Positions 768 to 36,415 of a stretch of DNA of 43,936 nt are shown here, in pieces. The DNA comes from Bacteroidota bacterium (GTDB lineage: Bacteria > Bacteroidota > JABWAT01), in the NCBI GenBank assembly GCA_017303995.1, contig JAFLBE010000036.1, positions 1 to 43,936 on the forward strand, given 5' to 3'. Each line of letters opens with the position of its first letter. The stretch's first letter is position 1. The notes under the pieces were generated by a model. It searched no databases and was not told the DNA's origin. It saw nothing but the letters and a program-made list of their open reading frames with translations. The position numbers were made by a program, and so were the translations under genes.

Positions 768-840
768 GAAATGACAGTTAGCTGACACACTCCCCGCTGA
801 TTTTCTCCATTTTTGCACAGCAAATTTTTACAGGCAGGTT

Positions 841-2136: not shown

Positions 2137-2188
2137 GAGTAAGGTGTAAGGAGTAAGGCAAAAAGGTAATTTCTGAATGCTAATGAAA

Positions 2189-2207
2189 CCCCCTCCGACG
2201 GAGGGGG
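2189..2207. repeat. GC-rich palindrome between convergent genes
   Basis: The sequence forms 9-bp perfect arms, CCCCCTCCG and CGGAGGGGG, around a single A. It is followed by further G-runs (TAAGGGGGTGGGTTAGGG). It lies between the stops of hemL and the convergent gene at 2241. It lacks a T-tract on the plus side, so it is not a classical intrinsic terminator. It looks like a mobile extragenic palindrome, and the run of G tracts might also fold differently. Confidence 0.5.
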
Positions 2208-2240
2208 TAAGGGGGTGGGTTAGGGATTTCCCCCCCAAAA

Positions 2241-2891
2241 TCAATCTTCGTCTTCTTCCGATTGAGAACCTGCATAACTTCCCGGACCAAACCAACCGAA
2301 TTTAAAATTCAGATTCACTGAAACCTGAGAAAGATCCTCATTCGTCAAATGGGGCATATCAAGTCCGTTCACCCAACGATACGAAACACCGATATTGGTT
2401 CTGAGAAAATCGGTCACATTTACTTCTGCGTTCAATGAGGGTTCAATGACGAAAAACGGATTTCCATCTTTTTCATCAGGTTCTTTCATATCATGCGAGT
2501 AAACTACTCCGCCACCGCCAATCAGCGTTGAAGCTGAAAAGTGAACGAGGTCAAGCGGATTGTGAACATATTCCATATAAAATCCGCCATAGCCAAACCG
2601 GACATATTGGGTATTTCCCGGATTCAATGCCTGAACGGCATCATCAGCTTTAATGTTGTTGACCAATCCCCATCCGCCACCACCAAGAATAATGGTTTGG
2701 TTCAGCATCACCCCGCCATATCCGCCAAAAAGTACTCCCTTTTCACCATTTACCATGGTTCCGTGAATTGAAGGACCACCACATCCTGAAAAACGAAGGT
2801 CATGCAGACTGATTAAAGTCTTAGGTGAATCCTGTGCCTGAACTGAAAAACTAAATAATAATGAAGTTATTGCTAAATATGCTATTTTCAT
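2241..2891 (-). CDS. Secreted glycine-rich beta-barrel-like protein
   Basis: The ATG at 2891 gives a 216-aa protein with a clean signal peptide (MKIAYLAITSLLFSFSVQA, cleavage before QDS). An in-frame ATG at 2954 would add 21 polar residues ahead of the signal peptide and was rejected. The mature part is rich in Gly/Val/Tyr with alternating patterns such as GVLFGGYGGVML, IILGGGGWG and FGYGGFYMEY. It ends in an aromatic-rich strand (NLNFKFGWFG) followed by an acidic tail. This pattern suggests a small outer-membrane or periplasmic beta-barrel/beta-sandwich protein, possibly metal-inducible or structural, but I recognise no named family. The gene is monocistronic, convergent with hemL and divergent from mdh. 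Confidence 0.75.
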   Translation of the reverse strand: MKIAYLAITSLLFSFSVQAQDSPKTLISLHDLRFSGCGGPSIHGTMVNGEKGVLFGGYGGVMLNQTIILGGGGWGLVNNIKADDAVQALNPGNTQYVRFGYGGFYMEYVHNPLDLVHFSASTLIGGGGVVYSHDMKEPDEKDGNPFFVIEPSLNAEVNVTDFLRTNIGVSYRWVNGLDMPHLTNEDLSQVSVNLNFKFGWFGPGSYAGSQSEEDED

Positions 2892-3063
2892 CTTTTTATC
2901 CTTTTGATTTGAAACGAGGTTGATTCTACGGCAAAGATCACCAACCGGTTTCATTGAAACTGTTTGGATGGGATGAAATGATGAATTGGGCGGATTGAAC
3001 GCTTAAACCGGGGAATAAAATACCTTATGATCATTATTTTTTAATTAGTGACCGTCACTCAAT

Positions 3064-3094
3064 TTCAAAATTAAGTCCGGAATTCCTAACTTTG
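3064..3094 (+). promoter_or_regulatory. Candidate mdh promoter
   Basis: TAACTTTG at 3087-3094 matches TAnnTTTG exactly, and TTTC at 3063-3066 lies 20 nt upstream where TTTG would be expected (one mismatch). The predicted start is about 30 nt before the mdh ATG. This spacing equals that of the tRNA-Arg and pyk promoters in this window. Confidence 0.55.
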
Positions 3095-3119
3095 CCTCGT
3101 TATTAAATTACTTAACTAA

Positions 3120-4052
<933 letters not shown>

Positions 4053-4077
4053 TTTTCTTTTTGTTTTTTTGTCTTTT

Positions 4078-4110
4078 AAAAAACCCGGCGAAGCAATTCC
4101 CGGGTTTTTT
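4078..4110 (+). terminator. Intrinsic terminator of mdh
   Basis: The stem AAAAAACCCGG / CCGGGTTTTTT has an 11-nt loop and ends in a T-tract, 25 nt after the mdh stop. The A/T symmetry means it could also work on the minus strand, though no minus gene points at it. Confidence 0.9.
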
Positions 4111-4163
4111 ATTGGGAACAATCAAAACCAACTCATTGTTCGGATTGAAAATCTGGAGGAAAT

Positions 4164-4433
4164 ATGGATTGCCCCGTTTGCAAAGTAAATCTGGTTATGA
4201 CCGACCGTCAGGGAATCGAAATTGATTATTGCCCGAAATGCCGTGGCGTTTGGCTGGATCGGGGTGAGCTGGATAAAATTATCGAAAGATCTGTGAACGA
4301 AGTTGAGGTTCCTCCTGCAAGACCGGCACAGAATTTCCCGAATCAGGGTTATCAGCAGCCGGGATATCAGCAGCCCGGTTACCACAAACCTTACAAGAAA
4401 AAAAGTATGTTCGAAGATTTATTTGATTTTTAG
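4164..4433 (+). CDS. TFIIB-type zinc-ribbon small protein
   Basis: This 89-aa protein begins with a zf-TFIIB domain: CPVC at residues 3-6 and CPKC about 20 residues later, followed by the family signature RGVWLDRGELDKI. Four cysteines would bind one zinc. The C-terminal half is low-complexity, with two and a half GYQQP-type repeats, then a lysine patch and an acidic-aromatic tail ending FEDLFDF. That architecture (zinc ribbon, flexible linker, basic patch, D/F tail) is typical of this bacterial family, whose role is not established. A good Shine-Dalgarno (CTGGAGG) precedes the ATG. Its stop codon overlaps the stop of the convergent antiporter gene by 4 nt (4430-4433). Confidence 0.85.
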   Translation: MDCPVCKVNLVMTDRQGIEIDYCPKCRGVWLDRGELDKIIERSVNEVEVPPARPAQNFPNQGYQQPGYQQPGYHKPYKKKSMFEDLFDF

Positions 4434-6457
4434 GAAATCAGATCGGTTCCCAAAATCCCCAATGCGGCATCAATTTCTGCATGGTTCCCGATCATGACCA
4501 CAACATCACCAGGTTCAAACCGATAGGTTGTATCTGGTGAACTTATCGACTTTCCATCCCGCACAACTGCAATGATATGAATTCCTGCAATACTGGTTAA
4601 CCCTGATTCAAGTATTGTTTTACCGGCTACCGGTGATGTATCCAGAATAACCCCTGATTCGGTCGTGGTTGCTGCCAGAATGTAAGGAAGCTGACCCAGC
4701 GTTTCCTTGCTCACGGCCTGACCCCGCATGGTTCCGTACCGTTCTTTTCTGATGATGGCGATCTGGGATGAAATCACATTTCTTGGAATGTGGAAATATC
4801 TCAGCGTCCTTGAAAAGATCTCAATACTGGTTTCAAATTCTTCAGGGATAACCTGATCAGCACCGGCTTCATACAATTGCTCCAGTTCACTCACATAGCG
4901 GGTTCTGGCCAGAATGTGAAGTCCCGGATTGACTGCTCTGGCAACCTTGATGATCCGCATCGTTGAATAAAACTCACCTGTGCTGATAACAAGAACCGAG
5001 GCATCATGAATGACAAGCTGATCCAGGATTTCTGTAGTGGTTGAATCACCAAAAACCGTACGGTATCCGAGGCTTTTTGCCAGACTGAACCGCTGATGCT
5101 GAAGTTCTGAAATGACAAACGGAATTCCGGTTTCCTGCAAAACGTACGATAAATGCTGACCGGTTTTTCCAAATCCGATAATAATGACATGGCCTTTGAG
5201 TTTTTTCCCCTCATTACCTGATTCAAGTTTATCTGCCGAAACCATGGATGACAAAACTCTCAACGGAGAAGTTATCATGGCGCGATTGTGCATTTTCTTT
5301 TGAATCCAGAATCCGATTGAATTGCTGTACACCAATAACGTTGGCGCTGCTAGCATGGTGAGAACACTCGCACCCAGAAAAACCTGATAATCAAAATCGC
5401 CAAGAAGGTTCAACCCTTTTGCTGACATGGCGATAACCAAACTGAATTCACCAATCTGGGCAATGGTAAGTCCGACTGCAATTCCAATACGTTGCGGATA
5501 GTTGAGAAGCCGGGCAAGAATGGCAACAACCACAGTTTTGAGTAAAACAATCGCCACTGCCATTGCGATAATAATCAGATAGTGTTCAGCGAAAAACGAA
5601 AGATTCAGCAACATCCCGACGGAAATAAAAAACAAAGAAGTCAGAGCATCTTTCATAGGGAAAATATCAGCCAGAACCTGATGCGAATATTCAGACTCAG
5701 ACACAATCAGACCGGCAAGAAAAGCGCCAAGTGCGAGTGAAAGTCCGACAGCATGGCCAACCCAGGCGATAAAAAAAATGATAAAAATGATGGTGATAAT
5801 AAAGACTTCACGATTATTGGAAGCCGTTACCAATTTTAAAAGTTTCGGCACCAAATATCTGGCTCCAACCAGAATCACAGCAATTCCGCCAATCGAAAGT
5901 CCCAAAGTGCCAATTATTTTCAGCGGCTCAGCCTGGCCATCACCGGCTAAAACCGGAAGCAGGAGCATCATGGGAATAATCGCCAGATCCTGAAGTAATG
6001 ATATACTTAAAGTCAGCTTTCCAACCGGTGTATTCAATTCCTTTCGCTGACCCAAAATTTTCATGATGATAGCCGTTGAAGAAACTGAAACCATAAATCC
6101 AAAAACCAAACTTTTCTCCAGGTTGACGTTGAAAATCCACCCGGCAAGAACCGTTAACAGAATGGTAAACCCAACCTGACCACCGCCAACGAGAAGAAGG
6201 AAATTTTTTATTTTCAGGATCTTTTCAATCGAAAATTCAAGTCCGATTGTAAATAAAAGCAGAATGATTCCAATTTCAGCAAGAAACTGAACCGATTCCA
6301 TGTTACCAACCCATCCCAATGAATACGGCCCGATTAAAAGTCCGGCAACGATAAATCCTATCAGCGACGGAAATTTTAATTTTTCTGCAAGCAAAACCAT
6401 CGGAATGACAACTGCCATTAAAATCAGAAAGTCTTGTAACAGGGTACTGTCATGCAT
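4430..6457 (-). CDS. Kef-type cation/proton antiporter (CPA2 family)
   Basis: This 675-aa inner-membrane antiporter consists of a Na+/H+-exchanger-like domain (about residues 8-385, roughly 12 hydrophobic segments), then a TrkA-N/RCK nucleotide-binding domain starting near residue 423 with the Rossmann motif IIGFGKTGQ, and a TrkA-C domain over the last 80 or so residues. This domain order matches KefB/KefC/YbaL-like K+/H+ antiporters, gated through the RCK domain. The transported ion cannot be read from sequence, and glutathione-specific control is not shown, so no gene symbol is assigned. The start is 14 nt downstream of the 5'-nucleotidase stop, which suggests co-transcription from the nucleotidase promoter. 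It converges on the zinc-ribbon gene with overlapping stops. Confidence 0.93.
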   Translation of the reverse strand: MHDSTLLQDFLILMAVVIPMVLLAEKLKFPSLIGFIVAGLLIGPYSLGWVGNMESVQFLAEIGIILLLFTIGLEFSIEKILKIKNFLLLVGGGQVGFTILLTVLAGWIFNVNLEKSLVFGFMVSVSSTAIIMKILGQRKELNTPVGKLTLSISLLQDLAIIPMMLLLPVLAGDGQAEPLKIIGTLGLSIGGIAVILVGARYLVPKLLKLVTASNNREVFIITIIFIIFFIAWVGHAVGLSLALGAFLAGLIVSESEYSHQVLADIFPMKDALTSLFFISVGMLLNLSFFAEHYLIIIAMAVAIVLLKTVVVAILARLLNYPQRIGIAVGLTIAQIGEFSLVIAMSAKGLNLLGDFDYQVFLGASVLTMLAAPTLLVYSNSIGFWIQKKMHNRAMITSPLRVLSSMVSADKLESGNEGKKLKGHVIIIGFGKTGQHLSYVLQETGIPFVISELQHQRFSLAKSLGYRTVFGDSTTTEILDQLVIHDASVLVISTGEFYSTMRIIKVARAVNPGLHILARTRYVSELEQLYEAGADQVIPEEFETSIEIFSRTLRYFHIPRNVISSQIAIIRKERYGTMRGQAVSKETLGQLPYILAATTTESGVILDTSPVAGKTILESGLTSIAGIHIIAVVRDGKSISSPDTTYRFEPGDVVVMIGNHAEIDAALGILGTDLIS

Positions 6458-20891: not shown

Positions 20892-21029
20892 TTTTGGTTT
20901 GATCTTTCTTACATCCGATTACAAGATCATGACCTTTAAACTTCAAAAGAAAAATCAAATCCGTTTTAAACGATGACTTTTTAAATTAAATTTATACCTT
21001 CGTTTTAACGCAATCTATTGGAAAACGTG

Positions 21030-24000
21030 ATGTCAAACTGGCCAACCCTCCTTCTTACCGCCCTTTTTCTGCTTTCTTTTCCAGACTCTTGTCTTCATGC
21101 TTCCGGGTTCAAATCCAGAATTTATGGAAAAGAATCAGTCGATATCCCCACCAACCTTACCAAATCCATCATTCAGGACAAAAATGGGTTCATTTGGATC
21201 GGATCGGATAACGGACTTATTTTATTCACAGGAAACCAGTTTCAGACAATTAATGAAGACCTTCCAAGTACTTATGTAAAAAAATTGGTTCAGCCAGAGG
21301 GTCACGAATTCCCGTTTGTTATCACCGACAAAGGTATTGTAAAAATTACAAGCAGCATTCCTGCAAAAACTGAAATTTTCCTTGCCGGTTCCTCAAAAAT
21401 TTCAGACACCACCGTTTTTTACCCCAAGTCTTTATTTTTTGATAAGAACGGCGCATGCTGGATCAGTGAACCGGGATCCATTGTCCGATATGCAAACGGA
21501 AAAATTAAACGGTATTTGTTTGAGGAAAAATTCAGGGCCGATCACTTTTTTAGGTCTTTTCTTTTTCAGGAAACGGCTGACGGAAAACTGATTGCAACCT
21601 GTCAGCCCGGATTTTTATTTCTTTACCAGCCTGATACTGACCAATTTGTACAGGTTGACTTACAAGGTGAAGGTATTGACTTCAGTTTTGATGCATTTCT
21701 AAAAGATTCCCGCGGCAGAATCTGGCTTGGTACCCAGGTTGGACTTTTCGAACTGAAACTAAGTCAGTCTGGTACTTCCGGGAGGGTCATCCGGAAAAAT
21801 TCAATTCCTGACATCTCGGTAATTATGGAATCAGGTGACGATCTTTTTATCGGAACCTGGCTTACCGGACTTTACCGGGCGTCCTTTTCAGACCCGGTTA
21901 ATCCGGTTCCAATTCCAGATTTACAGTTTAAGGTTATCAATGATGTATTTCTGGCAAAGGACGGAACGATCTGGATCACTTCAGATGAAGGATTTGGCTT
22001 TATCAACCTTCCCGCTTTTGAATCTTTCCTGCTTCCAGCAGCAAAATTATTTGTTCAGCTCGTCACTCCTCTTGAAGATGGATCAGCCTTAACAAGTGAA
22101 GGATTTTTCGTTTTTCACGTCACACCGGCAACCCAAACCAAACCCTTTCAAATCAAGAAAATTTACGAACAGTCCCAAAGCCTCATCATGGGGCTCACTG
22201 GTACTGTTGACCATTTCTTTGTGAGTTATAAAGATGGGTTCCTTGAGGAAATCGTAAATGGAAAGAAAATCAAAACCTACCAATTCCCTCTGGTTTTTGA
22301 AAATAACAGAATCATCCGTTCAATTTCTATGGCGAAAGATAAAACTGTTTATTTCCAGGTAACCGAATTTAAAGGAATCGGGAAAATCTCTTCAGAAGGA
22401 ATCATCACGGCAATTGGTCCCGATCCGGTAATCCGAACCGACGTCAGGTGTATTTACCTGGATGACGAAAACCAGATCATCTACATGGGAAGTACAGGCT
22501 CGAATTCACTTTTATATAGTTATTCTATTCAAACCGGGAAGTTCAAAAACCTTGCTGAACAAAACAATCTTCAATTTCCCGAAAACATTCAGGTCAATGA
22601 TTTAAAAATGGATGGTGCAGGAAAGTTATGGATTGGAACCAACCAGGGTATTCTTTGTTTCAAAAACGGACTCATTTTCCGCCCGGAAGGTTTTCTTTCT
22701 GAACGGGTCAATATCAATGCACTTGCCATTGCCGGACCGGATAAAATATGGTCAGGGCAGGAGCAGGGGCTGGTTTATTATGATCACGAAGAAGCCGTTC
22801 GTTTTGATGCCTCAAACGGGTTCAACAATGTTACCATAACCGGCCGTGCGCTTGCAATCGGGAAAGATGGAAGGGTTTGGGCAGGAACCGCTGCCGGCGT
22901 AACCTACCTGCGTGATCCAGGTTCATTTTTAATTTCAAAAAGTTTGACCCCTTCTATCATCAGGTTTGCTGTTTCAGGAAAGAATCTTTCCGGCGACGAT
23001 TTTTTAAACGGAATTCAAATCCCGTTTAACTCTGGCTTCGAAGCTACAGTATCCTGCCTGATGTTCCCGACAGAAAACATCAGATATCAGTTTAAACTTG
23101 CCGGCCGTGATTCAGTCTGGTCTGCCCAAACCTCCAATCCAACTATTTTTATTTCCGGACTAAAATCGGGAAACTATACACTCCAAGTCATTGCCAGGCA
23201 AAATGGAAACCTGAAAAGTGATCCGCTTGAAATAAAGCTTATTGTTCTGCCGGCCTGGTTTGAAACCTGGTGGGCTTACCTGCTATTTATTTCGGGTCTT
23301 GCTGCACTTGGATTTCTTTTCTTTAAAGTTAGACGGAATATTCAAAAGCGAAAGGCTGCTGAATCCAATCTGATCAGATCAGAAAAACAAAACCGGGATC
23401 TGGTTAACGCTTTTCCTGACTTCTGGACCCGCATCAACCGGAATCTTGAAATTACATCCCACCATCACGGAACACTCATTCTTCCCTTTATTCAGGATCC
23501 ACAAAACCTGACAGGTAAACCTATTTCTGATATTTTCCCCGTTTCAGTTGCAAAATTGATTCTGCCGGCACTTGAAAAAACCTGGTCATCCGGTCAAAGT
23601 GAACTGATCATTTTTTCCTGGGAACATCTGGAATTTAATTTTGATTTCGAAGCTCGTATTCTGCTTCCGGGAGGAAATGAAATTCTGATTCTGATCAGGG
23701 ATATTTCCCAACAAAAACAACTTGAACGTGAACTGATTACGGCAAGAGAAGCGGCTCTTGAGGTTTCACGATTAAAATCTGACTTTCTGGCAACCATGAG
23801 CCATGAAATCAGAACACCCATGAACGGGGTTATCGGAATGACCAGTTTATTGCTGCATACCCCGTTAACACCAGAACAAACTGAATATGTGCAATCACTT
23901 AAATTCAGCGGGGAGCAATTACTTCACCTGATTAATGATATTCTTGATTTCTCGAAAATTGAGTCTGGACGGATGGAAATTGAGCAAAAACCATTTTCGT

Positions 24001-25196
24001 TGGTTTCAAGTATAGAAAAAGTTGTTAATCTTTTTATACCTAAAGCTTCAGTAAAAGGGCTCAGAATTTTTGTTGTCTATGATCCGGAAGTTCCGGAATA
24101 TATAAATGGTGACGAAAACAAGGTCAGACAGATTCTCGCAAACCTCGTTGATAATGCAATTAAATTTACAAGCGAAGGCGTGATTCTGGTAACTGTTAAA
24201 AATGGGATTGATTCTGCAAATACTCAGATTCTTTATATTACTGTCAGAGACACCGGAATTGGAATTCCGGAATCCAAGCAACACAAATTATTTGAATCGT
24301 TTTCCCAAATTGATGCTTCAGTAACCCGGAAATATGGCGGCACTGGCCTTGGGTTGGCCATCTGCAAAAAACTCGCAATTCTGATGGGTGGTGATCTACA
24401 GGTACAGTCAAAGGAACATAATGGCAGCCGGTTTTCCCTTTCTTTGATTACGCCAAAGCTGGATTATATCAGACGGGTTAAGTCATTGGGACTTATCAAT
24501 CAGAACTTGGAAATTTCGATTAAAGAACCAAACCGGAAGCACCTTTTTATTCTCAAAAAAATGCTTCTCAATTTTGGATTTCTTAACGTCAGGTCTGATC
24601 AGGATTTGGAAAGTAACAAGGGGCTTTTCATCGACCGTGCAAATTCCAATGATAACCCGGGATACCGAATAAAAATCAACGGGCAAGACGCAAACTTTTA
24701 TGGTATGATCGGGTGGACTCAGATTGAAACGATTCTCGCCACCATGAATGGCGGAAGTAAGGAATCATCAACACTGTTACCAGAACAGAAATCTGAAATA
24801 CAAACAGGTGATGGAGTCCCACTTAAAATTCTTGTTGCCGAAGATAATCAGGTCAACCAGGTTCTGATCAAACGAGTTTTGAGCAAATTGGGATATACCT
24901 GCTTTCTGGCAATTAATGGCGAAGATGCCCTGACACAGGCTAAAATACTGAATCCCGATTTTATTTTTATGGATGTTCAAATGCCTGTCATGGACGGACT
25001 TGAATCAACCCGTGAAATCAGAGCGTTTTTTAAAGGAATGAAGCCGGTCATTATCGCCCTTACGGCAAATGCCATGGAAAAAGACCGTGAAATTTGCCTC
25101 GAAGCCGGAATGAATGATTATCTGGCGAAACCGATTGTAATCGGTGATGTTGATAAAATGATCACGAAATGGGCAGCCGTGCTTCCATCCTTATAA
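21030..25196 (+). CDS. Hybrid sensor kinase: propeller, Y_Y_Y, PAS, HisKA, ATPase, receiver
   Basis: This 1388-aa one-protein phosphorelay resembles the hybrid two-component systems of Bacteroidota. Order: signal peptide (1-25); periplasmic propeller repeats of the W-[IV]-G-[ST]-x-x-G-[LI] type to about 630 (for example IWIGSDNGL, IWLGTQVGL, LWIGTNQGI, VWAGTAAGV); Y_Y_Y-like domain (about 631-745); one transmembrane helix (about 746-765); PAS-like region (about 787-897); HisKA with H925 in SHEIRTPMNG; HATPase with NAIKFT, DTGIGIP and GGTGLGLAI; a region of about 105 residues without recognisable motif (about 1145-1250); and a C-terminal receiver with phospho-acceptor D1315. There is no AraC output domain, so the final target is another protein. 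The ATG at 21030 is preferred over GTG 21027 and TTG 21018. Ligand unknown; in related systems it is often a glycan or environmental solute. Confidence 0.92.
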   Translation: MSNWPTLLLTALFLLSFPDSCLHASGFKSRIYGKESVDIPTNLTKSIIQDKNGFIWIGSDNGLILFTGNQFQTINEDLPSTYVKKLVQPEGHEFPFVITDKGIVKITSSIPAKTEIFLAGSSKISDTTVFYPKSLFFDKNGACWISEPGSIVRYANGKIKRYLFEEKFRADHFFRSFLFQETADGKLIATCQPGFLFLYQPDTDQFVQVDLQGEGIDFSFDAFLKDSRGRIWLGTQVGLFELKLSQSGTSGRVIRKNSIPDISVIMESGDDLFIGTWLTGLYRASFSDPVNPVPIPDLQFKVINDVFLAKDGTIWITSDEGFGFINLPAFESFLLPAAKLFVQLVTPLEDGSALTSEGFFVFHVTPATQTKPFQIKKIYEQSQSLIMGLTGTVDHFFVSYKDGFLEEIVNGKKIKTYQFPLVFENNRIIRSISMAKDKTVYFQVTEFKGIGKISSEGIITAIGPDPVIRTDVRCIYLDDENQIIYMGSTGSNSLLYSYSIQTGKFKNLAEQNNLQFPENIQVNDLKMDGAGKLWIGTNQGILCFKNGLIFRPEGFLSERVNINALAIAGPDKIWSGQEQGLVYYDHEEAVRFDASNGFNNVTITGRALAIGKDGRVWAGTAAGVTYLRDPGSFLISKSLTPSIIRFAVSGKNLSGDDFLNGIQIPFNSGFEATVSCLMFPTENIRYQFKLAGRDSVWSAQTSNPTIFISGLKSGNYTLQVIARQNGNLKSDPLEIKLIVLPAWFETWWAYLLFISGLAALGFLFFKVRRNIQKRKAAESNLIRSEKQNRDLVNAFPDFWTRINRNLEITSHHHGTLILPFIQDPQNLTGKPISDIFPVSVAKLILPALEKTWSSGQSELIIFSWEHLEFNFDFEARILLPGGNEILILIRDISQQKQLERELITAREAALEVSRLKSDFLATMSHEIRTPMNGVIGMTSLLLHTPLTPEQTEYVQSLKFSGEQLLHLINDILDFSKIESGRMEIEQKPFSLVSSIEKVVNLFIPKASVKGLRIFVVYDPEVPEYINGDENKVRQILANLVDNAIKFTSEGVILVTVKNGIDSANTQILYITVRDTGIGIPESKQHKLFESFSQIDASVTRKYGGTGLGLAICKKLAILMGGDLQVQSKEHNGSRFSLSLITPKLDYIRRVKSLGLINQNLEISIKEPNRKHLFILKKMLLNFGFLNVRSDQDLESNKGLFIDRANSNDNPGYRIKINGQDANFYGMIGWTQIETILATMNGGSKESSTLLPEQKSEIQTGDGVPLKILVAEDNQVNQVLIKRVLSKLGYTCFLAINGEDALTQAKILNPDFIFMDVQMPVMDGLESTREIRAFFKGMKPVIIALTANAMEKDREICLEAGMNDYLAKPIVIGDVDKMITKWAAVLPSL

Positions 25197-26030: not shown

Positions 26031-26070
26031 CTAAACAAAAAACCCGGCTTGAACCGGGTTTTTTGTTTAG
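26031..26070. terminator. Bidirectional intrinsic terminator, phosphoesterase / pyk
   Basis: A perfect 17-bp inverted repeat (CTAAACAAAAAACCCGG and its complement) surrounds a 6-nt loop CTTGAA. A- and T-tracts on both sides make it function in both directions. The right arm contains the pyk stop codon (26067-26069). Confidence 0.95.
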
Positions 26071-27500
26071 ATTTCTTCGATCCGCATCATGTTGGTACTT
26101 CGCCGTTTGGTAAACGGAAGTCCGGCCGTGATGATAATCCGGTTGCCCTGACGGACAATTTCTTCTTTGATCAGTGATTGTTTCATTTCTTCTACCGCAT
26201 CATCAACATTATCCTTGAAACCAGGAATCAGATAACCCTGAACGCCCCACACGAGGCAAAGTCTGAGTAACGAAATTCTTCTTGCTGTAACGGCAATGAT
26301 GGGCTTTTTAGGGCGGAATTTGGAAATCATGACCGCTGTTGAACCTGACTGTGTCATACAAACGATTGCAGAAGCATTGACCATATTGGCAGCATTACAA
26401 GCTGCATAACCAATGGCAAGCGGAGCTGAATACACAATATTCTTAGGTTTTAAATCTTGTTCAGTATTCGTAAGTGCATAATTTTCAATGATGGTAATGA
26501 TCTTTGCCATGGTTTGAACGGCTTCAATCGGGAAGGCTCCTGCAGCAGTTTCAGCTGAAAGCATCACGGCATCTGTACCATCTAGAATAGCATTGGCTAC
26601 ATCAGAAGCTTCAGCACGGGTTGGTCGTGGATTGTGAATCATAGATTCAAGCATCTGAGTTGCAGTAATAACCGGCACGCCCTTCTGATTACACATTTTG
26701 ATAATTTTTTTCTGGGTTGGCGGAACGTCTTCGGTGTTTAATTCAACGCCGAGATCGCCACGGGCAACCATAATGGCATCAGCAACATCGGTGATGGCAT
26801 CAAGACTGTGAACTGCCTGTGGTTTTTCAATTTTTGCAACAATCGGGGTGTCATAACCGGCATTGGTAATAATTCGTTTCAACTGAAGCACATCATCAGC
26901 ACGTTGAACAAAAGAAAGGGCGATGTAATCAACTTCATTCTTCAGACCGAACTCAACATCAGCAATATCTTTTTCCGAAAGGGCAGGAACCGACATCAGA
27001 ACATCTGGAAGGTTAATTCCTTTTCTGTCCTTGAGAACGCCACCAAAAACAACTTCGGTGATCACATCAGTATCGGTAACTTCCAAAACTTTTAGCTTCA
27101 GAATTCCGTCATCGAGAAGAACAATGTCTCCCTCTTTAACATCTTTGACAATGCTTTTATAGGAAGTTGAAACCCGTTCTTCATTTCCGACACATTCGTC
27201 AACAGTAATATTAAATTTTGCACCGTTGTTCAGCGTTACTTTTCCATATTGAAAAGTACCCACACGAATCTTAGGACCCTGTAAATCCTGCAGAATCGCA
27301 ATTGGCTTATCAATATCCTCAGAAACTTTTCTGATGATTTTAATACGTTCGAGATGGTCTTCGTAACTGCCGTGAGAAAAGTTCAGACGGGCAACATCCA
27401 TTCCGGCTAAAGCCAGATCACGGATCGTTTCGTAAGAGTTGGAAGAAGGACCCAATGTACATACAATTTTGGCCCGGCGAGAATTGAGATTGATACTCAA
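26067..27500 (-). CDS. pyk: Pyruvate kinase
   Basis: This enzyme converts phosphoenolpyruvate and ADP to pyruvate and ATP, the last step of glycolysis; it is cytosolic. The 477-aa protein shows RRAKIVCTLGPSS at the N-terminus, the substrate-binding RLNFSHG, the VAKIEKP and MVARGDLGVE catalytic segments, and the signature TATQMLESMI. A regulatory C-terminal domain (about 355-477) follows. The length is that of a standard bacterial type without an extra PEP-utiliser-like domain. A TTG-N20-TACTTTTG promoter lies 40-70 nt upstream and a terminator overlaps its stop, so it is monocistronic. Confidence 0.97.
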   Translation of the reverse strand: MSINLNSRRAKIVCTLGPSSNSYETIRDLALAGMDVARLNFSHGSYEDHLERIKIIRKVSEDIDKPIAILQDLQGPKIRVGTFQYGKVTLNNGAKFNITVDECVGNEERVSTSYKSIVKDVKEGDIVLLDDGILKLKVLEVTDTDVITEVVFGGVLKDRKGINLPDVLMSVPALSEKDIADVEFGLKNEVDYIALSFVQRADDVLQLKRIITNAGYDTPIVAKIEKPQAVHSLDAITDVADAIMVARGDLGVELNTEDVPPTQKKIIKMCNQKGVPVITATQMLESMIHNPRPTRAEASDVANAILDGTDAVMLSAETAAGAFPIEAVQTMAKIITIIENYALTNTEQDLKPKNIVYSAPLAIGYAACNAANMVNASAIVCMTQSGSTAVMISKFRPKKPIIAVTARRISLLRLCLVWGVQGYLIPGFKDNVDDAVEEMKQSLIKEEIVRQGNRIIITAGLPFTKRRSTNMMRIEEI

Positions 27501-27623: not shown

Positions 27624-28028
27624 TCACAAAGCAACGTGATCATCAACCAGTTTTTTCAGATCAGGTGAAGAAATTGGCTTTGGAAGCATGCCTAAAGCCC
27701 CATCACGAATCGCCTGATCCATCCGGCTTCCTATTTCACCGTCACTTGCAAAACCGGTAATAAAAAAAGTCTTGACCGGAATGTTGCCATTAAGGGCTTT
27801 GATAGCATAAAATGCATCAATTCCATCCATATTTGGCATTTTTACATCCATCAGAATAAAATCCGGCAATTTTCCTTTTGCTTTTTCGACAGCAACCGAA
27901 CCATCTTCTGCTTTAATGATGGCCAATGCGCCTGATTTTACCTTATCGCGGAAATAGATTTTTATAATGGTTTCAAAGATATCACGGATACCTTCTTCAT
28001 CATCAACAATGAAAATGGTACTGCTCAT
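27624..28028 (-). CDS. Stand-alone receiver-domain response regulator
   Basis: This 134-aa protein is a single receiver domain with no output domain (CheY/Spo0F type). The acidic pocket D9/D10, phospho-acceptor D61 (in LMDVKMP), switch T91 and K117 (in LPKP) are all present. Its start codon overlaps the stop of the propeller sensor gene (ATGA), so the two are translationally coupled and almost certainly partners. With no DNA-binding domain it must act by protein contact or as a phosphorelay intermediate. Compared with typical receivers it has a somewhat long beta1-beta2 region (KSGALAIIKAEDG). Confidence 0.93.
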   Translation of the reverse strand: MSSTIFIVDDEEGIRDIFETIIKIYFRDKVKSGALAIIKAEDGSVAVEKAKGKLPDFILMDVKMPNMDGIDAFYAIKALNGNIPVKTFFITGFASDGEIGSRMDQAIRDGALGMLPKPISSPDLKKLVDDHVAL

Positions 28029-30721
28029 AAATTGTCACCGGTAAGGTCTATCATTTGTTGGTCCTTGGTGTAGGATTTAGTCTTAAATTTAGCATCATTT
28101 AGGAGTTCTTCCAATTTCCTGAGCAGATTTTTGATACGAGTCACATTTTCGCCCGCCTTTTTAACGGGTTCATCGAGTTCGGGTTCATTTCCCTGATTCA
28201 AAAGACTGATCACTTCAATATTTCCGTTTAATATCTGAAGAGGTTGGCGTATTTCATGCAAAACACCGATCGTGACCTGCCTGATCACTTCAATACGTTC
28301 TTTCTCCCGTCGTTCTTTTACCGCCTGACGCCAGCGGCCAAAAAAGTAAACGCCTGAAATCAAAGCCACAATCACCAGTGCTATAAACCAGGTTGTTTTA
28401 TAAAATGGGGGTCTCACAATCAGATAAAGTGAAGTTCCCGTTTCATTCCAGACGCCATCGTTATTTGAACCGGTCACTCTGAACGTATAATCTCCCGGAT
28501 CGAGATTGGTGTAAGTCACGTACCGCCGGTTTCCGGCCTGAATCCAGTCTTCATCAAACCCGACGAGCTGATATTTATATTTATTCTTCTGCGGATTTGT
28601 AAAATCCAACGCAGCAAACTCAAAGGAAATCATGTTTTGTCTGGGTTTGAGCGTGTAACTATCGAGAAAAGATAGCGCCACCGGAAGCAAAACCGGCTGA
28701 TTCAAGATTTTAAAATCGGTAAGAATGATTTGGGGAAGAAATTGATTTTCACTCACCGCACCCGGCTGAAAAACCGTCAAACCACCCACACCACCAAAAA
28801 AAAGCAGGCCATCAGATCCTTTGAACCAGGCACCGCCGTTAAACTCATTCGCCTGCAACCCGTCACTTTCATCATAGTTTTTGAATTTGCCTGATTCCGG
28901 ATTGAATTTTGACAAGCCAAAGTTTGTACTCAGCCAAAGATTCCCGGTTTGATCGGGAAGGATGCCATAAATGTAGCCGTTGGGTAACCCATCTTTTTCG
29001 AGAAAGTGGAGAAATTTATTTTTTTCTGCATCAAACTGATTCAAACCGGCTGCAGTTCCCACCCAAAGTTTGCCGGCTTCATCTTCATACATACACCGGA
29101 TTTCATTGTCACTTAACGAGCCGGCTTCATTTTCCTGACTTTTCCAGGTTTTCCAGATTCCTGTTTCAGGATTAAACTGATTCAACCCACCACTTGTGCC
29201 GATCCACAAGCTTCCCGTAGCCGAACCGAATAGACTTCTGACCGTGTTTGATGCAAGCCCACGATCAGCGTGACGAAACCGGGTGAAGGTTTCTGTGGCT
29301 TCATCAAAACGTGAAAGTCCGCCACCATTGGTTCCAACCCAAATCCGGCTTTTCTCATCTTTGAATAAAACCCGGATGTCATCACTCCCGACCGTTAACG
29401 GATTATTCTCGTCTGATTTGTATTTTTTACCGGCAAGTGATTCTTTGTTTATCCGGCCCAGTCCGCTGCCTGTTCCAACCCAGATTGAATTGCCATCTTC
29501 TAAAAGCGAGAGAACAAAATTTCCCGAAAGCGCAGCAGGATGAGAGTTGGTTGTCAACTTGATAATTTGACCTGTTTCTGGTGAATACCGGGTTAATCCA
29601 CCACCCAAAGTCCCGATCCAGAGGCGTTTTTCTTTATCCACCAAAACCGACATCACGCCGGTATGATTCAGCAATCCTGAAACTGTTTCATTATTCAGAA
29701 CCCCAAATTTTGATGGTTTCAGATCGGTTTTGAAAAGTCCGCCGGTTTCAGTGCCGACCCAAAGCAAGTTCGAACGGTCTTCAAAAAGTGAAAAAATATT
29801 GGCTTCATGATGCTGTAAAACGCCCGGGCGTGACATTTCAATTTTTGACATGGTTTTCTGATCAGCTTCAAGCCGAAAAACGCCGGCTCCGTAGGTTCCG
29901 ATCCAGATTCTACCAAGATGATCTTCTCTGAGCGCCCAGATTTTATCTGCTGCAGGATTTTTTGAATCCGGCCGGATGACTGTTATTTTTTCCGTTTTCG
30001 GATCAATCCGGTTCAACCCGCCACCAAAAGTACCCGCCCAGAGTATTCCGTTTTTATCTGATATCAATGACCAAATGCGGTTTTCTGACAGACCGGATGA
30101 TCCTGATTGAAACCATTTTACTTCCCCGGTTTCGGGTATCAGGCAGTTTAATCCGCCACCGTAGGTTCCAATCCAGATTCTTCCGTTTGCATCCTGCGCA
30201 AGTCCTCTGATCCGGTTAAAACTAAGCGAGCCATCCGGAGACGCCTTGTAATTTAGAACCGATCCCGTTGCAAGATCAACCCGGCTAAGTCCGGCATCAT
30301 CCGTTCCAACCCAGATTGCCCCATTTTTATCTGCAAGAAGAACTCTGATGATTTGACCGGGAATTTTACCTGCAAACGGTCGTGAAAATTTTTCAGTTTC
30401 AGGTGAAAATACATTGAGACCAGAGCCCTGGGTTCCGACCCATATTTTACCGGACTGATCTTCCAGAATGGCATTTATGTTGTTTTCTGATAAAGATCCA
30501 GAATCGTTCGGGTCATGTTTAAATATCCGGAAGGTATATCCATCGAAGACATTCAGGCCATCACGGGTTGCAAACCACAACCTGCCGGATTGATCCTGTA
30601 AAATAGCAGTTACCGAATTCTGGCTCAGTCCATCAGACCCTGAAAGCTGCGAAAATCTTGCAGGACCACCCATCACTGAAGTGAAAAAAATCAGAAACAG
30701 AAAAACAATCTGGTAAGCCAT
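28025..30721 (-). CDS. Propeller/Y_Y_Y sensor with HisKA helix but no ATPase domain
   Basis: This 898-aa protein has a signal peptide (start ATG 30721 with a GGAG Shine-Dalgarno) and 14 propeller blades, recognisable from LWFATRDGL, IWVGT..GL, IWIGTYGGGL and similar, enough for two seven-blade propellers. A Y_Y_Y domain follows, then a transmembrane helix near residues 785-805. The cytosolic part is only about 90 residues: a DHp/HisKA helix pair with phospho-acceptor H822 in LHEIRQPLQILNG, then a second helix and the stop. The N, G1, F and G2 boxes are absent. The stop is ATGA-coupled to a lone receiver, so the short form looks intended rather than broken. It probably receives phosphate from another kinase or works as a Spo0B-like phosphotransferase or a phosphatase. 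The ligand is unknown. Confidence 0.9.
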   Translation of the reverse strand: MAYQIVFLFLIFFTSVMGGPARFSQLSGSDGLSQNSVTAILQDQSGRLWFATRDGLNVFDGYTFRIFKHDPNDSGSLSENNINAILEDQSGKIWVGTQGSGLNVFSPETEKFSRPFAGKIPGQIIRVLLADKNGAIWVGTDDAGLSRVDLATGSVLNYKASPDGSLSFNRIRGLAQDANGRIWIGTYGGGLNCLIPETGEVKWFQSGSSGLSENRIWSLISDKNGILWAGTFGGGLNRIDPKTEKITVIRPDSKNPAADKIWALREDHLGRIWIGTYGAGVFRLEADQKTMSKIEMSRPGVLQHHEANIFSLFEDRSNLLWVGTETGGLFKTDLKPSKFGVLNNETVSGLLNHTGVMSVLVDKEKRLWIGTLGGGLTRYSPETGQIIKLTTNSHPAALSGNFVLSLLEDGNSIWVGTGSGLGRINKESLAGKKYKSDENNPLTVGSDDIRVLFKDEKSRIWVGTNGGGLSRFDEATETFTRFRHADRGLASNTVRSLFGSATGSLWIGTSGGLNQFNPETGIWKTWKSQENEAGSLSDNEIRCMYEDEAGKLWVGTAAGLNQFDAEKNKFLHFLEKDGLPNGYIYGILPDQTGNLWLSTNFGLSKFNPESGKFKNYDESDGLQANEFNGGAWFKGSDGLLFFGGVGGLTVFQPGAVSENQFLPQIILTDFKILNQPVLLPVALSFLDSYTLKPRQNMISFEFAALDFTNPQKNKYKYQLVGFDEDWIQAGNRRYVTYTNLDPGDYTFRVTGSNNDGVWNETGTSLYLIVRPPFYKTTWFIALVIVALISGVYFFGRWRQAVKERREKERIEVIRQVTIGVLHEIRQPLQILNGNIEVISLLNQGNEPELDEPVKKAGENVTRIKNLLRKLEELLNDAKFKTKSYTKDQQMIDLTGDNL

Positions 30722-30743: not shown

Positions 30744-30775
30744 CAAATATACACCTTACACACCAGACTAATCAA
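30744..30775 (-). promoter_or_regulatory. Promoter of the propeller sensor-receiver operon
   Basis: On the minus strand TTG (30773-30775) is followed after 21 nt by TATATTTG (30744-30751), a perfect -7 element. The expected start is only about 15 nt before the ATG. Confidence 0.7.
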
Positions 30776-30967: not shown

Positions 30968-32248
30968 ATGAAAAATATCACTGCAGTCATTTTAGGTGGC
31001 GGACAAGGAGCCCGTCTGTTCCCGTTGACCGGAAGCCGTTCAAAACCAGCAGTTCCAATTGGTGGAAAGTTCCGTCTGATTGACGTCCCCATTTCAAATT
31101 GCATCCTGAGTGATATTAAAAGAATTTATGTGCTTACCCAGTTCAACTCTGAATCCCTTCACCGGCACATTACTCAGGCCTACCACTTCGGCAGTTTTTC
31201 TGATGATTTTGTACAGATTCTCGCCGCTCAGCAAACCATGAGCAATAAAGAATGGTATCAGGGAACTGCTGATGCCGTTCGTCAAAACCTGAATTACATC
31301 ACCCACATCAAATCAGAATATACCCTGATTCTGAGCGGTGATCAGCTTTATCACATGGATTTCAGTAAAGTTTATGCTGCCCACATCAAAAACAAAGCTG
31401 ATTTAACCGTTTGTGTTCTGCCTGTGAACCGGGATGCTGCAAAGGGATTCGGTATTCTTCGCACCAATGACAATGGCCGCATCGTAGAATTCCATGAAAA
31501 ACCAAATTCTGATCGTCTATTAGACGATTTGATGGTCAGCGATGAAGTTATTAAAAAACATGGTGTTGAAGCAAAAGGCCGTAACTATTTGGCAAGTATG
31601 GGTATTTATCTGTTTAAAACCTCAGTCCTTGTTGAACTTCTGAACGCTAACAATCACGAAGATTTCGGGAAACAGGTTATTCCGAACGCCATCGGAATGA
31701 AACGTGTTTTCGCCCATTTCTTTGATGGATACTGGGAAGATATCGGAACAATCAAGAGCTTCCATGAAGCCAATATTGCGCTGACTGATGAAGTTCCTGA
31801 ATTCGATTTTTACGATGAAGGGCACATGATCTTTACTCACCCCAGATATCTGCCGGGTTCAAAGATCAATTATGCCACGATTCACCGGGCCATTATTTCT
31901 GAAGGATCACTGATTCAGAATGCAAGAATTACCCGTTCGATTGTCGGGGTTCGGTCCATCATCCGCGATAATTGTATCATCGAAAACACCTACATCATGG
32001 GTGCTGATTATTACATGACCGATGAGTTTAAAGCCGAGGCCAAAAGTGACGGCGTTCCACCAATGGGAATTGGCGAAGGAACCACGATTCTGAATGCGAT
32101 CATTGATAAAAATGCCCGGATAGGCAGGAACGTAAAACTCGTTAACTATCAGAACCATCAGAATTACAAAGACAATTACGTTTTCATTGTGGATGGAATT
32201 ATTGTAGTTGCCAAAAACTCAATCATTCCTGATAACTACGAAATCTGA
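30968..32248 (+). CDS. glgC: Glucose-1-phosphate adenylyltransferase
   Basis: This enzyme makes ADP-glucose from glucose-1-phosphate and ATP, the committed step of bacterial glycogen synthesis; it is cytosolic and usually allosterically controlled. The 426-aa protein has the nucleotidyltransferase motif GGGQGARLFPLT (residues 10-21) followed by SKPAVPIGGKFRLIDVPISN. The conserved GTADAVRQ and LSGDQLYHMDF appear next, and a left-handed beta-helix C-terminal domain with hexapeptide-like repeats ends in the glgC-typical IVVAKNSIIPD. The sequence style (KRIYVLTQFNSESLHRH) resembles the cyanobacterial/plant branch. A good Shine-Dalgarno (CGGAGAGG) precedes the ATG and a strong terminator follows. 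No other glycogen gene is in the window. Confidence 0.96.
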   Translation: MKNITAVILGGGQGARLFPLTGSRSKPAVPIGGKFRLIDVPISNCILSDIKRIYVLTQFNSESLHRHITQAYHFGSFSDDFVQILAAQQTMSNKEWYQGTADAVRQNLNYITHIKSEYTLILSGDQLYHMDFSKVYAAHIKNKADLTVCVLPVNRDAAKGFGILRTNDNGRIVEFHEKPNSDRLLDDLMVSDEVIKKHGVEAKGRNYLASMGIYLFKTSVLVELLNANNHEDFGKQVIPNAIGMKRVFAHFFDGYWEDIGTIKSFHEANIALTDEVPEFDFYDEGHMIFTHPRYLPGSKINYATIHRAIISEGSLIQNARITRSIVGVRSIIRDNCIIENTYIMGADYYMTDEFKAEAKSDGVPPMGIGEGTTILNAIIDKNARIGRNVKLVNYQNHQNYKDNYVFIVDGIIVVAKNSIIPDNYEI

Positions 32249-34107: not shown

Positions 34108-35037
34108 CTATTCTGCTAAAATCTTCATTTTCAGAATATATTTATATAATTTCGAATCATTCAAATGTTTGTACGTACCAGTATTTAGATACACCACAAA
34201 ATGCTGTCCTCTTTCAAGAATTTTCTTATTGTACTCAACTTGCAGGGGATAGTCACTTTTGACTTTGATATTTCGGATTATTGTATCCATGAAAAAGGGA
34301 TTTATATTGAACGCGTTATTTGCAATTTCAAATATCATTTCCATTTTTCTTTCATTATCAATGAATTCGTAAGTTGTCAAATAATCTAAACCAATTGTAT
34401 TGAGATATAATGACGATTTATTTTCTAACCATAAAGAATAGACAGCACCGAGAATATCATCATTATATTTTCTGGTTCGCGTTATTCCCGACGTATATTT
34501 ACCTTGAAGGAATTTGAGTCTTTTAAGTACTTTCCTTTCATTTTTGTCTGGATGTTCAATGATATCAAATTTTACAACATTTGAATAATAAACTTTTTTG
34601 GATCCCTTTTCAATCAAAAATATACGAACAGAGTAATTTCCTTTTACCAGCGAAAAGGAAAATAATTGAAGTTGATTTTTAAAATAACTGTCAAATTCCT
34701 CCAAATTACTTTTATTTCCTACTTCAAAATCTATCATTGAAAAATAGGTAATTGTTTCATTTGCTTTTATTATCCTCTTCACTTTATTAATACTTGGACC
34801 CGAGTAAAACCGGTCAGGGGATCTACCAATTAATTTATCATTTTGGTATAACTCATATTTCACAAAATCCTGATATTCAAAATCTATGTTTGATGGATTT
34901 TTTATTGTTACCCGGCAAATTGTACCTAAGTGTTCATAAATAACTGGATTGATGCTTAGTTTAATTGAAACTGGTTCTGAAGCCTGTGTGCCAGTTGAAC
35001 TCACAAAAAACAGAAACAAGATAAAAATGTTTTGCAT
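34108..35037 (-). CDS. Exported protein of unknown function, AT-rich
   Basis: This 309-aa protein has a signal peptide (cleavage after TQAS, about residue 20), then an Ig-like beta domain (about 22-165) recognisable by VSIKLSINPVIYEHLGTICR and strand patterns. A helical C-terminal half follows with several KK/KR clusters. There is no lipobox or membrane segment after the signal. I do not recognise the family. The gene is clearly more AT-rich than its neighbours and lies on the strand opposite the photolyase. It sits between an intact photolyase and a broken second photolyase 3' end, so it was probably brought in or stranded by a rearrangement. A palindrome lies 63 nt upstream. Confidence 0.7.
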   Translation of the reverse strand: MQNIFILFLFFVSSTGTQASEPVSIKLSINPVIYEHLGTICRVTIKNPSNIDFEYQDFVKYELYQNDKLIGRSPDRFYSGPSINKVKRIIKANETITYFSMIDFEVGNKSNLEEFDSYFKNQLQLFSFSLVKGNYSVRIFLIEKGSKKVYYSNVVKFDIIEHPDKNERKVLKRLKFLQGKYTSGITRTRKYNDDILGAVYSLWLENKSSLYLNTIGLDYLTTYEFIDNERKMEMIFEIANNAFNINPFFMDTIIRNIKVKSDYPLQVEYNKKILERGQHFVVYLNTGTYKHLNDSKLYKYILKMKILAE

Positions 35038-35554: not shown

Positions 35555-36415
35555 TTATTTTCCAACTTTAACATTTATGGTGATTGATCCGCTTGTACCA
35601 GTTACGATAGTAGCAACGTGAGCAAGACCATATTTTCCGGCTTCTGTTTTAAAGGCAACAATTTTGCTAACGGTAAGCAAATTAGCTTTGCTATCGGCAC
35701 CGGTTGTTACTGCGTCATAAGCTGCTTTCACAGCTTCATCATCTGCAATGTTAGTAAATTGAGTTTCAGTCAATGTTGTAACTTTGAAAGTTGTTGCATT
35801 GGTTTTTGTCCAGGTTTGCAGGCCAGTAGTTGCATTATTATAAATAGTTGCTGCAGAAGCATCATTTGGAGCAGCAAGAGTAGCTTCATTGGTAGCACCA
35901 AAATAATATAGAATATCAACAACACTGGAATTGGTTTTGGCTTCAGCTTGTTTATAAACATTACCTGTAACAGTGGCTAAGAAACTTCCGGAAGCATCGT
36001 TCGATTGTGCACCAAGAAGTTTAGTTGAATAAGAACTCAGGTTTGAATCTTTGTTCAGATTAAATGTTCTTGTCGTTGTTTTATCATCATCATCTGTTGC
36101 ATTAATTGTAATGATAACTGAGGATACCAAAGTATAAGTGAGGGTAACTTCCTTACTTGCAGCATCAACTTTTTCAGATTTTTGAGAAGTACTTCCGGCA
36201 AGAACCGTATAATTTGCCACTTTGTTATCATCAGAAACAGTAAATGTAATGGTTACACTTCCTGCTTTTTGAGTTACTGCATCACCAGTAACTGGAGTTC
36301 CATTGACCTTAAGGTCAGTAATCGTTGGACCTTCTTTTTCTTCTTCAGTATCACAGCCAACGAGGCCGATTGATGCAATTAGAAGGGCAGATAGCAAATA
36401 GGCTAATTTTTTCAT
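35555..36415 (-). CDS. Ig-like domain lipoprotein
   Basis: This 286-aa lipoprotein carries lipobox IGLVGC (C21), an acidic linker rich in Glu, then an Ig-like beta-sandwich (about residues 30-120; for example TITDLKVNGTPV, GSVTITFTVSDD, STSQKSEKV, TRTFNL). A second, Ala/Thr/Ser-rich domain (about 125-286) looks beta-rich. Asn and Thr are abundant, as in surface-exposed adhesin-like lipoproteins, but binding is inference. A Shine-Dalgarno (AAGGAAA) precedes the ATG. Two TAnnTTTG boxes occur upstream, TATCTTTG at 36472-36479 and TATATTTG at 36449-36456, neither with a well-placed TTG. The gene is followed by a terminator and stands alone. Confidence 0.8.
   Translation of the reverse strand: MKKLAYLLSALLIASIGLVGCDTEEEKEGPTITDLKVNGTPVTGDAVTQKAGSVTITFTVSDDNKVANYTVLAGSTSQKSEKVDAASKEVTLTYTLVSSVIITINATDDDDKTTTRTFNLNKDSNLSSYSTKLLGAQSNDASGSFLATVTGNVYKQAEAKTNSSVVDILYYFGATNEATLAAPNDASAATIYNNATTGLQTWTKTNATTFKVTTLTETQFTNIADDEAVKAAYDAVTTGADSKANLLTVSKIVAFKTEAGKYGLAHVATIVTGTSGSITINVKVGK

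Follow-up and report, generated by a model that had tools for sequence, protein, structure and literature searches.

The window, a stretch of 43,936 nucleotides, carries on its minus strand a gene for a membrane receptor of the propeller type, followed at once by a gene for a stand-alone receiver. The features of this pair are:

28025–30721, minus strand: receptor gene, 898 aa, with signal peptide, 14-blade double propeller, Y_Y_Y domain, transmembrane (TM) helix, DHp and tail, without an ATPase domain
30668–30721, minus strand: signal-peptide-like N-terminus, residues 1–18 (sequence MAYQIVFLFLIFFTSVMG; helix 3–14 in the model)
28763–30652, minus strand: putative pair of seven-bladed Reg_prop propellers, residues about 24–653 (Pfam stretches and predicted structure)
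28415–28606, minus strand: Y_Y_Y domain, residues 706–769 (Pfam PF07495, E 3.6e-19)
28334–28393, minus strand: TM helix, residues about 777–796 (hydrophobic run WFIALVIVALISGVYFFG; start of a long helix, 777–841)
28097–28333, minus strand: DHp helical hairpin, residues about 797–875, with H-box HEIRQPLQ (HisKA in homologues, AF2 helices, DHp matches in the PDB)
28256–28258, minus strand: H822, phospho-acceptor candidate, invariant in four family genomes and three Acidobacteria propeller-DHp proteins
28043–28072, minus strand: C-terminal tail motif Y884-x5-M890-I-D892-L893, occupying the position of a DHp-ATPase linker (conserved in alignments)
28025–28028, minus strand: ATGA in which the receptor stop and the receiver start overlap, with the same 4-nt overlap in the three other family genomes and in an Acidobacteria locus (L106)
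27624–28028, minus strand: stand-alone receiver, 134 aa, of a distinctive subfamily with two insertions (Pfam Response_reg, E 2.1e-17; alignments; co-occurrence)
27846–27848, minus strand: D61, phospho-acceptor aspartate (sequence and receiver alignments)

A sequence-only reading of this DNA had described the receptor as having 14 blades, a Y_Y_Y domain, a TM helix and an H-box but no ATPase domain, joined to the lone receiver by an intact ATGA overlap. Its coordinates, H822, D61 and the 4-nt overlap are exact when checked against the sequence, and Pfam, sequence and predicted structure agree on the domains. Pfam reports 13 Reg_prop stretches, and the full-length model has 13 four-stranded blades and a closing blade, giving the 14, which would divide into two propellers of seven. 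The ATG at 30721 yields the signal-peptide-like N-terminus; an alternative start, TTG at 30775, would yield 916 aa. The NCBIfam label PorZ was rejected for the receptor, as the match of 138.9 bits against a cut-off of 260 reflects only propeller repeats in common.

A profile search of the receptor end, the check that the reading had proposed, gave a weak HisKA match (Pfam, E 0.0015, under the family cut-off) and no HATPase, Hpt or other domain at E≤1. Two homologues that likewise lack HATPase, an Acidobacteria propeller-DHp protein (L073) and a 7TMR-DISM paralogue, pass the HisKA cut-off of 26.9 bits with 31.3 bits each, and the DHp of the receptor is therefore assigned to the HisKA type. AF2, run on an alignment of the DHp part by itself, predicted a helical hairpin (helices at pLDDT 84–94) whose best PDB matches are the DHp domains of ZraS, FixL chimeras and CpxA, none of them below E 0.02. 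In the full-length model, the C-terminal part of which is of low confidence, one long helix (777–841) runs from the membrane into DHp helix 1 and a second spans residues 847–875, leaving only 23 residues before the chain stops. The C-terminal end reads KSYTKDQQMIDLTGDNL.

Conservation of the truncated receptor and its receiver

The same receptor with the same end is present as an open frame of 900–931 aa in 4/4 available family genomes, and in 4/4 it is ATGA-coupled to the receiver. Relative to the window, the other three genomes are 81, 56 and 43% identical over the whole receptor and 93, 76 and 78% over the receiver. Over the last 330 bp, which cover the DHp region, dN/dS was 0.034/0.83 to genome G002 and 0.17/1.68 to G001, the two pairs with computable dS; the DHp region is under purifying selection.

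The form also occurs outside the phylum, where our sampling covered the loci found and eight genomes only. Acidobacteria assembly JACPPM01 encodes three propeller-Y_Y_Y-TM-DHp proteins with an identical kind of end. At L106 the propeller-DHp gene (1133–3703) overlaps a lone receiver (3700–4125) by 4 nt, and at L116 (3099–6017) a receiver of the window subfamily lies ~2 kb off, beyond a sigma-54 activator. Desulfobacula likewise has a lone REC whose gene shares 4 nt with that of a PAS-DHp protein. The L116 cluster as a whole (837–6017) consists of the propeller-DHp receptor, the sigma-54 activator, which has no receiver domain, and the window-subfamily receiver; the activator may be the output of that cluster.

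We found no homologues with a HATPase in the same position, and the truncated form is conserved in relatives, so that both findings that might have overturned the sequence-only reading came out in its favour. A truncated pseudogene or an assembly error could be imagined in a window that makes up one of the 127 contigs of a draft assembly, but the identical end in four different assemblies and in a second phylum, the strong purifying selection, the lack of any HATPase remnant and the overlap of the REC start with the receptor stop make this explanation hardly credible. Truncation or frameshift was rejected because the end is conserved in four genomes and a second phylum, as the earlier view that this is not a simple frameshift would have it.

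The receiver differs from the other receivers aligned by two insertions; the Acidobacteria receiver has both and is 38–39% identical. Its own genome has 87 REC matches, among which the window receiver matches only itself at E≤1e-12. At the same threshold the Acidobacteria genome holds exactly two receivers of the subfamily, both near a propeller-DHp gene (L106 and L116), and no third was found there for the propeller-DHp of L073. A subfamily profile matched 4/296 Bacteroidota genomes at E≤1e-22 in a scan whose first pass scored the best 14 candidates per genome, and these are exactly the four with this receptor; being close relatives, they count as one lineage, to which one other phylum is added. 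Linkage and strict co-occurrence strongly support the pairing of DHp and lone receiver that had been read from the sequence, with the receiver as the dedicated partner of the receptor. REC-DHp fusions are also widespread, which by the fusion argument suggests that DHp-tail modules work with RECs. The receiver residue set DD/D/T/K is invariant in the alignment of the window's branch, D61 is kept in the family and Acidobacteria receivers, and H822 and the adjacent E are kept in their receptors.

The C-terminal tail and other ATPase-less DHp proteins

At the position of the tail motif, canonical kinases have a linker ('..VDL..') to the ATPase domain. The tail is probably a kept remnant of this DHp-ATPase linker with a new use; its model is a weak beta-hairpin (pLDDT about 57–61). 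In an alignment of REC-DHp proteins (A5) the tail Tyr is invariant in 27/27 rows and the Met is found in 24/26 others, and the Tyr and Asp are invariant throughout the genome-scan alignment (A3). That scan used a narrow alignment (A2) with the H-box among its search patterns, so the conservation of the H-box in A3 is partly by construction; losses of the His were therefore counted on A5, the product of a profile search without such selection.

The motif, generalised as Y-x5-[MI]-[ILF]-D-[LIV], is found again where other inputs are joined to a DHp without an ATPase domain: a 7TMR-DISM-DHp protein in the same genome, PAS-DHp proteins in Nitrospirota, PAS- or GAF-PAS-DHp proteins in Desulfobacula and REC-DHp proteins in many Bacteroidota, some of which deviate at the last positions (e.g. 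K for D). Among the best 150 profile matches in 296 Bacteroidota genomes, frames of ≤340 aa make up 67/80 of those with the tail and 14/70 of those without (Fisher p 1e-15), a test that is partly circular, given a profile derived from ATPase-less proteins, and that takes frame length as a proxy. Eight of the 13 long exceptions with a tail are the family's own ATPase-less receptors. ATPase-less DHp proteins with the tail (PAS-, 7TMR-DISM- and REC-DHp) form a widespread and largely undescribed class, and the conserved tail, this class and its His-less members go beyond what had been read from the window.

The 7TMR-DISM-DHp protein is a second ATPase-less receptor with the same tail (L021, 2656–4173, on contig C43 of the same genome; L022, L023 and L072). 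Each of the four family genomes has it, and none of the loci inspected shows an adjacent receiver. The Nitrospirota proteins consist of PAS and DHp only (L074, 5008–6306; L076, 5497–6294; L079, 5500–6282); the first adjoins genes for cbb3-type oxidase subunits and CcoG-like proteins and the other two adjoin a gene for a CcoI-like P-type ATPase, neighbours that suggest a respiratory sensor. A Desulfobacula protein (L075, 5029–6624) has the order PAS-PAS-DHp-tail followed by PilZ, showing that the tail can be internal.

Sampled REC-DHp relatives (n = 26, A5) kept the His in 17 cases and lost it in 9, and all nine His-less proteins still keep the tail Tyr and the Met/Ile. The His-less loci are in Bacteroidota (L049, L051–L055, L060, L061, L065), with K, Q, R, T or D in place of the His and a tail that typically reads DKTVxYIKxIxMID; one member (in L088) lies immediately after a full histidine kinase. 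In HisKA proteins the acidic residue after the His serves the kinase reaction only, and T/N at H+4 serves the phosphatase reaction only (Willett and Kirby, PMC3510030). The 17 His-keeping REC-DHp proteins have lost the acidic neighbour in 10 cases and kept N at H+4 in 16, a residue pattern like that expected of phosphatases. In the window's branch the H, the adjacent E and a Q at H+4 are all kept. This pattern appears to fit phosphotransfer better than pure phosphatase action, and the Q by itself is neither proof nor exclusion of phosphatase action. Taken broadly, the DHp-tail module might be a signalling module in its own right, spread across phyla, with a partner logic of its own and with propeller, PAS, 7TMR-DISM or REC inputs, its branches comprising phosphotransferases, phosphatases without the residue that only the kinase reaction needs, and His-less adaptors, and its tail serving to dock; we offer this as a tentative proposal that may well be wrong.

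Possible handling of phosphate by the receptor

We give about equal chances of being right and wrong to the explanation that the receptor is a kinase-less partner which exchanges phosphate between H822 and D61 of its dedicated receiver, the phosphate coming from another kinase. As no ATPase domain is present, H822 cannot be phosphorylated from ATP in cis, and the receptor probably handles phosphate made by other kinases and makes none of its own, because the ATPase-less form and the receiver have been inherited together in two distant phyla. The periplasmic double propeller would sense a ligand, and the signal would pass along the Y_Y_Y domain and the one TM helix, both present in the protein, to a cytoplasmic DHp dimer. 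The DHp would bind the co-encoded receiver, and phosphate entering from another kinase would be exchanged between H822 and D61, reversibly and under control of the ligand, as in Spo0B and PhyT. The receptor could in this way set the level of REC~P or hand on phosphate from it, and the tail, at the point where an ATPase domain once began, may have been retained for docking or for stability. By analogy with PhyT (PMC5898713) and Spo0B, a role as phosphotransferase or phosphatase is plausible. Two findings speak against this explanation: nine of the 26 sampled REC-DHp relatives lost the His and kept the tail, which indicates that a DHp-tail module can do something that requires no phosphotransfer, and in the Bacteroidota loci the receiver is not accompanied by a gene for a transcription-factor output.

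A candidate for the other kinase is encoded in the window:

21018–25196, plus strand: complete hybrid kinase with propeller, HisKA, HATPase and REC (Pfam), candidate phosphodonor, syntenic in four family genomes

The sequence-only reading had correctly called this kinase complete and had made it the donor of a split relay, in which phosphate would run from the hybrid kinase through its REC to H822 and then to the lone receiver. This is the exchange explanation with a named donor, and in that special form we consider it unlikely. The kinase lies within about 5 kb of the receptor in all four family genomes (41% identical to the copy in G003), which with four related genomes only is weak evidence. 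The genome has 86 HATPase_c and 87 REC matches, with three stand-alone Hpt frames against 23 frames that contain both HATPase_c and REC, a contrast that hints at a use for alternative phosphotransfer proteins. Against the relay, receptor and hybrid kinase are encoded on different strands and are not transcribed together, the genome has many other kinases, and the complete Acidobacteria pair at L106 has no adjoining kinase. The synteny thus speaks for the proposed donor and the Acidobacteria pair speaks against it.

An ATPase domain might also be supplied in trans, with another kinase phosphorylating H822 within a heterodimer or a larger complex. The acidic neighbour of the His, specific to the kinase reaction in HisKA (PMC3510030), is kept in the branch as this would require, but the best DHp of a full-length kinase in the genome is only 29% identical over 67 residues (E 3e-4), the closest relative in the genome is the other ATPase-less protein (44%), and the H-box of the neighbouring hybrid kinase differs (HEIRTPMN), leaving catalysis in trans very improbable. 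A heterodimer with the hybrid kinase in particular was rejected on the differing H-boxes and the lack of a close full-length paralogue.

If instead the receptor were a phosphatase specific for its receiver, it would drain phosphate by ligand-controlled hydrolysis at D61, with no stable phospho-His. HisKA domains do carry phosphatase activity (PMC3510030), Galperin proposed such a role for proteins with HisKA but without HATPase (PMC5847659), and the REC-DHp relatives show the matching residue pattern. The window's branch shows the reverse, keeping the acidic residue (HE) with Q rather than T/N at H+4, and its H is itself invariant. We regard the phosphatase as a serious candidate that is nonetheless rather unlikely. 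A phosphate-free scaffold, with the DHp-tail dimer doing no more at the membrane than bind or sequester the receiver or some other partner, would account for the tail and fold of the nine relatives without His and has a parallel in PhyT, one of whose two functions is to sequester unphosphorylated PhyR (PMC5898713). Pure scaffolding would not need the H, the adjacent E or the receiver residues DD/D/T/K, all invariant in the branch, and we find it distinctly unlikely.

Known systems and surrounding genes

The best functional precedent for the exchange of phosphate proposed here is PhyT (formerly PhyP) of Sphingomonas melonis, which passes phosphate from the single-domain receiver SdrG to PhyR via its His (PMC5898713). 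PhyT resembles the receptor in being a membrane-anchored histidine-kinase-like protein with a putative periplasmic sensor and no working ATPase domain, and it acts with a single-domain receiver, as the receptor may do with its co-encoded, co-occurring one. It differs in its HRxxN box (HWE/HisKA_2 type), in keeping a degenerate ATPase domain, in acting on PhyR and in having no propeller, and sdrG lies elsewhere in the S. melonis genome whereas the window receiver is co-encoded. With H-box HEIRQP, a Pfam HisKA match and no ATPase remnant, the receptor was not assigned to the PhyT/PhyP type of DHp.

Spo0B of Bacillus subtilis and ChpT of Caulobacter are likewise dimeric four-helix bundles of the DHp type that shuttle phosphate between receivers without ATP (PMC3433190), but both are soluble and without a sensor. 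ChpT keeps a C-terminal domain with the ATPase fold (PMC3433190). The receptor has the 23-residue tail alone after its DHp in place of a degenerate ATPase-like domain, and was not placed with these proteins. Spo0B also has a C-terminal domain. An assignment to Hpt (PF01627) was rejected as well, as there is no Hpt match and the hairpin fold is that of a DHp. In Bacteroidota, hybrid two-component systems (HTCS) have the same Reg_prop and Y_Y_Y architecture in the periplasmic sensor, and a single HTCS chain unites kinase, receiver and AraC-type DNA-binding domain; the receptor chain ends after the DHp (Pfam) and is not an HTCS. As a HisKA histidine kinase it has the DHp with the phospho-acceptor His and lacks HATPase_c.

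With a sensor, a HisKA domain with its His and no HATPase, the receptor falls into the class of HisKA proteins without HATPase (PMC5847659), for which P2CS uses the label 'possible incomplete histidine kinase'. As far as the relevant part of Galperin's 2018 survey goes, it lists archaeal 'HisKA, no HATPase' proteins and REC-PAS/GAF-HisKA regulators and suggests both phosphotransfer and phosphatase action, with no experiment (PMC5847659). That class is archaeal with PAS/GAF sensors, and the same part of the survey describes no tail motif, dedicated receiver pair or propeller receptor. 'HisKA without HATPase' was thus already known as an uncharacterised census category; new relative to the open-access literature are a propeller receptor in which the loss is complete and conserved, the subfamily of its dedicated receiver, the motif in the tail and relatives that have no His. 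Receptors of this kind are often misannotated as kinases, and here is a case with the truncation conserved in two phyla and a partner receiver found by strict co-occurrence. The tail motif lets other such proteins be recognised, and the family offers natural mutants, with the His kept or lost and the acidic neighbour kept or lost, that make the question of what a DHp does without ATP directly testable.

The pair is flanked on one side by a further gene of the same strand:

26067–27500, minus strand: pyruvate kinase, a possible operon member whose gene comes next on this strand in each of the four family genomes

On the other side glgC (30968–32248) lies divergently upstream and appears conserved in all four family genomes. 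The block glgC, receptor, receiver and pyruvate kinase is conserved in the family, with neighbours matched by position and length, and hints at a link to carbon metabolism. Two further genes of the window, at 34108–35037 and 35555–36415, encode proteins of 309 and 286 aa with no Pfam match at E≤1e-5. Within the receptor gene, the five codons AAT GAT GCT AAA TTT at 28085–28099 are identical in the four family genomes while nearby synonymous sites vary, which could reflect codon preference or an overlapping signal.
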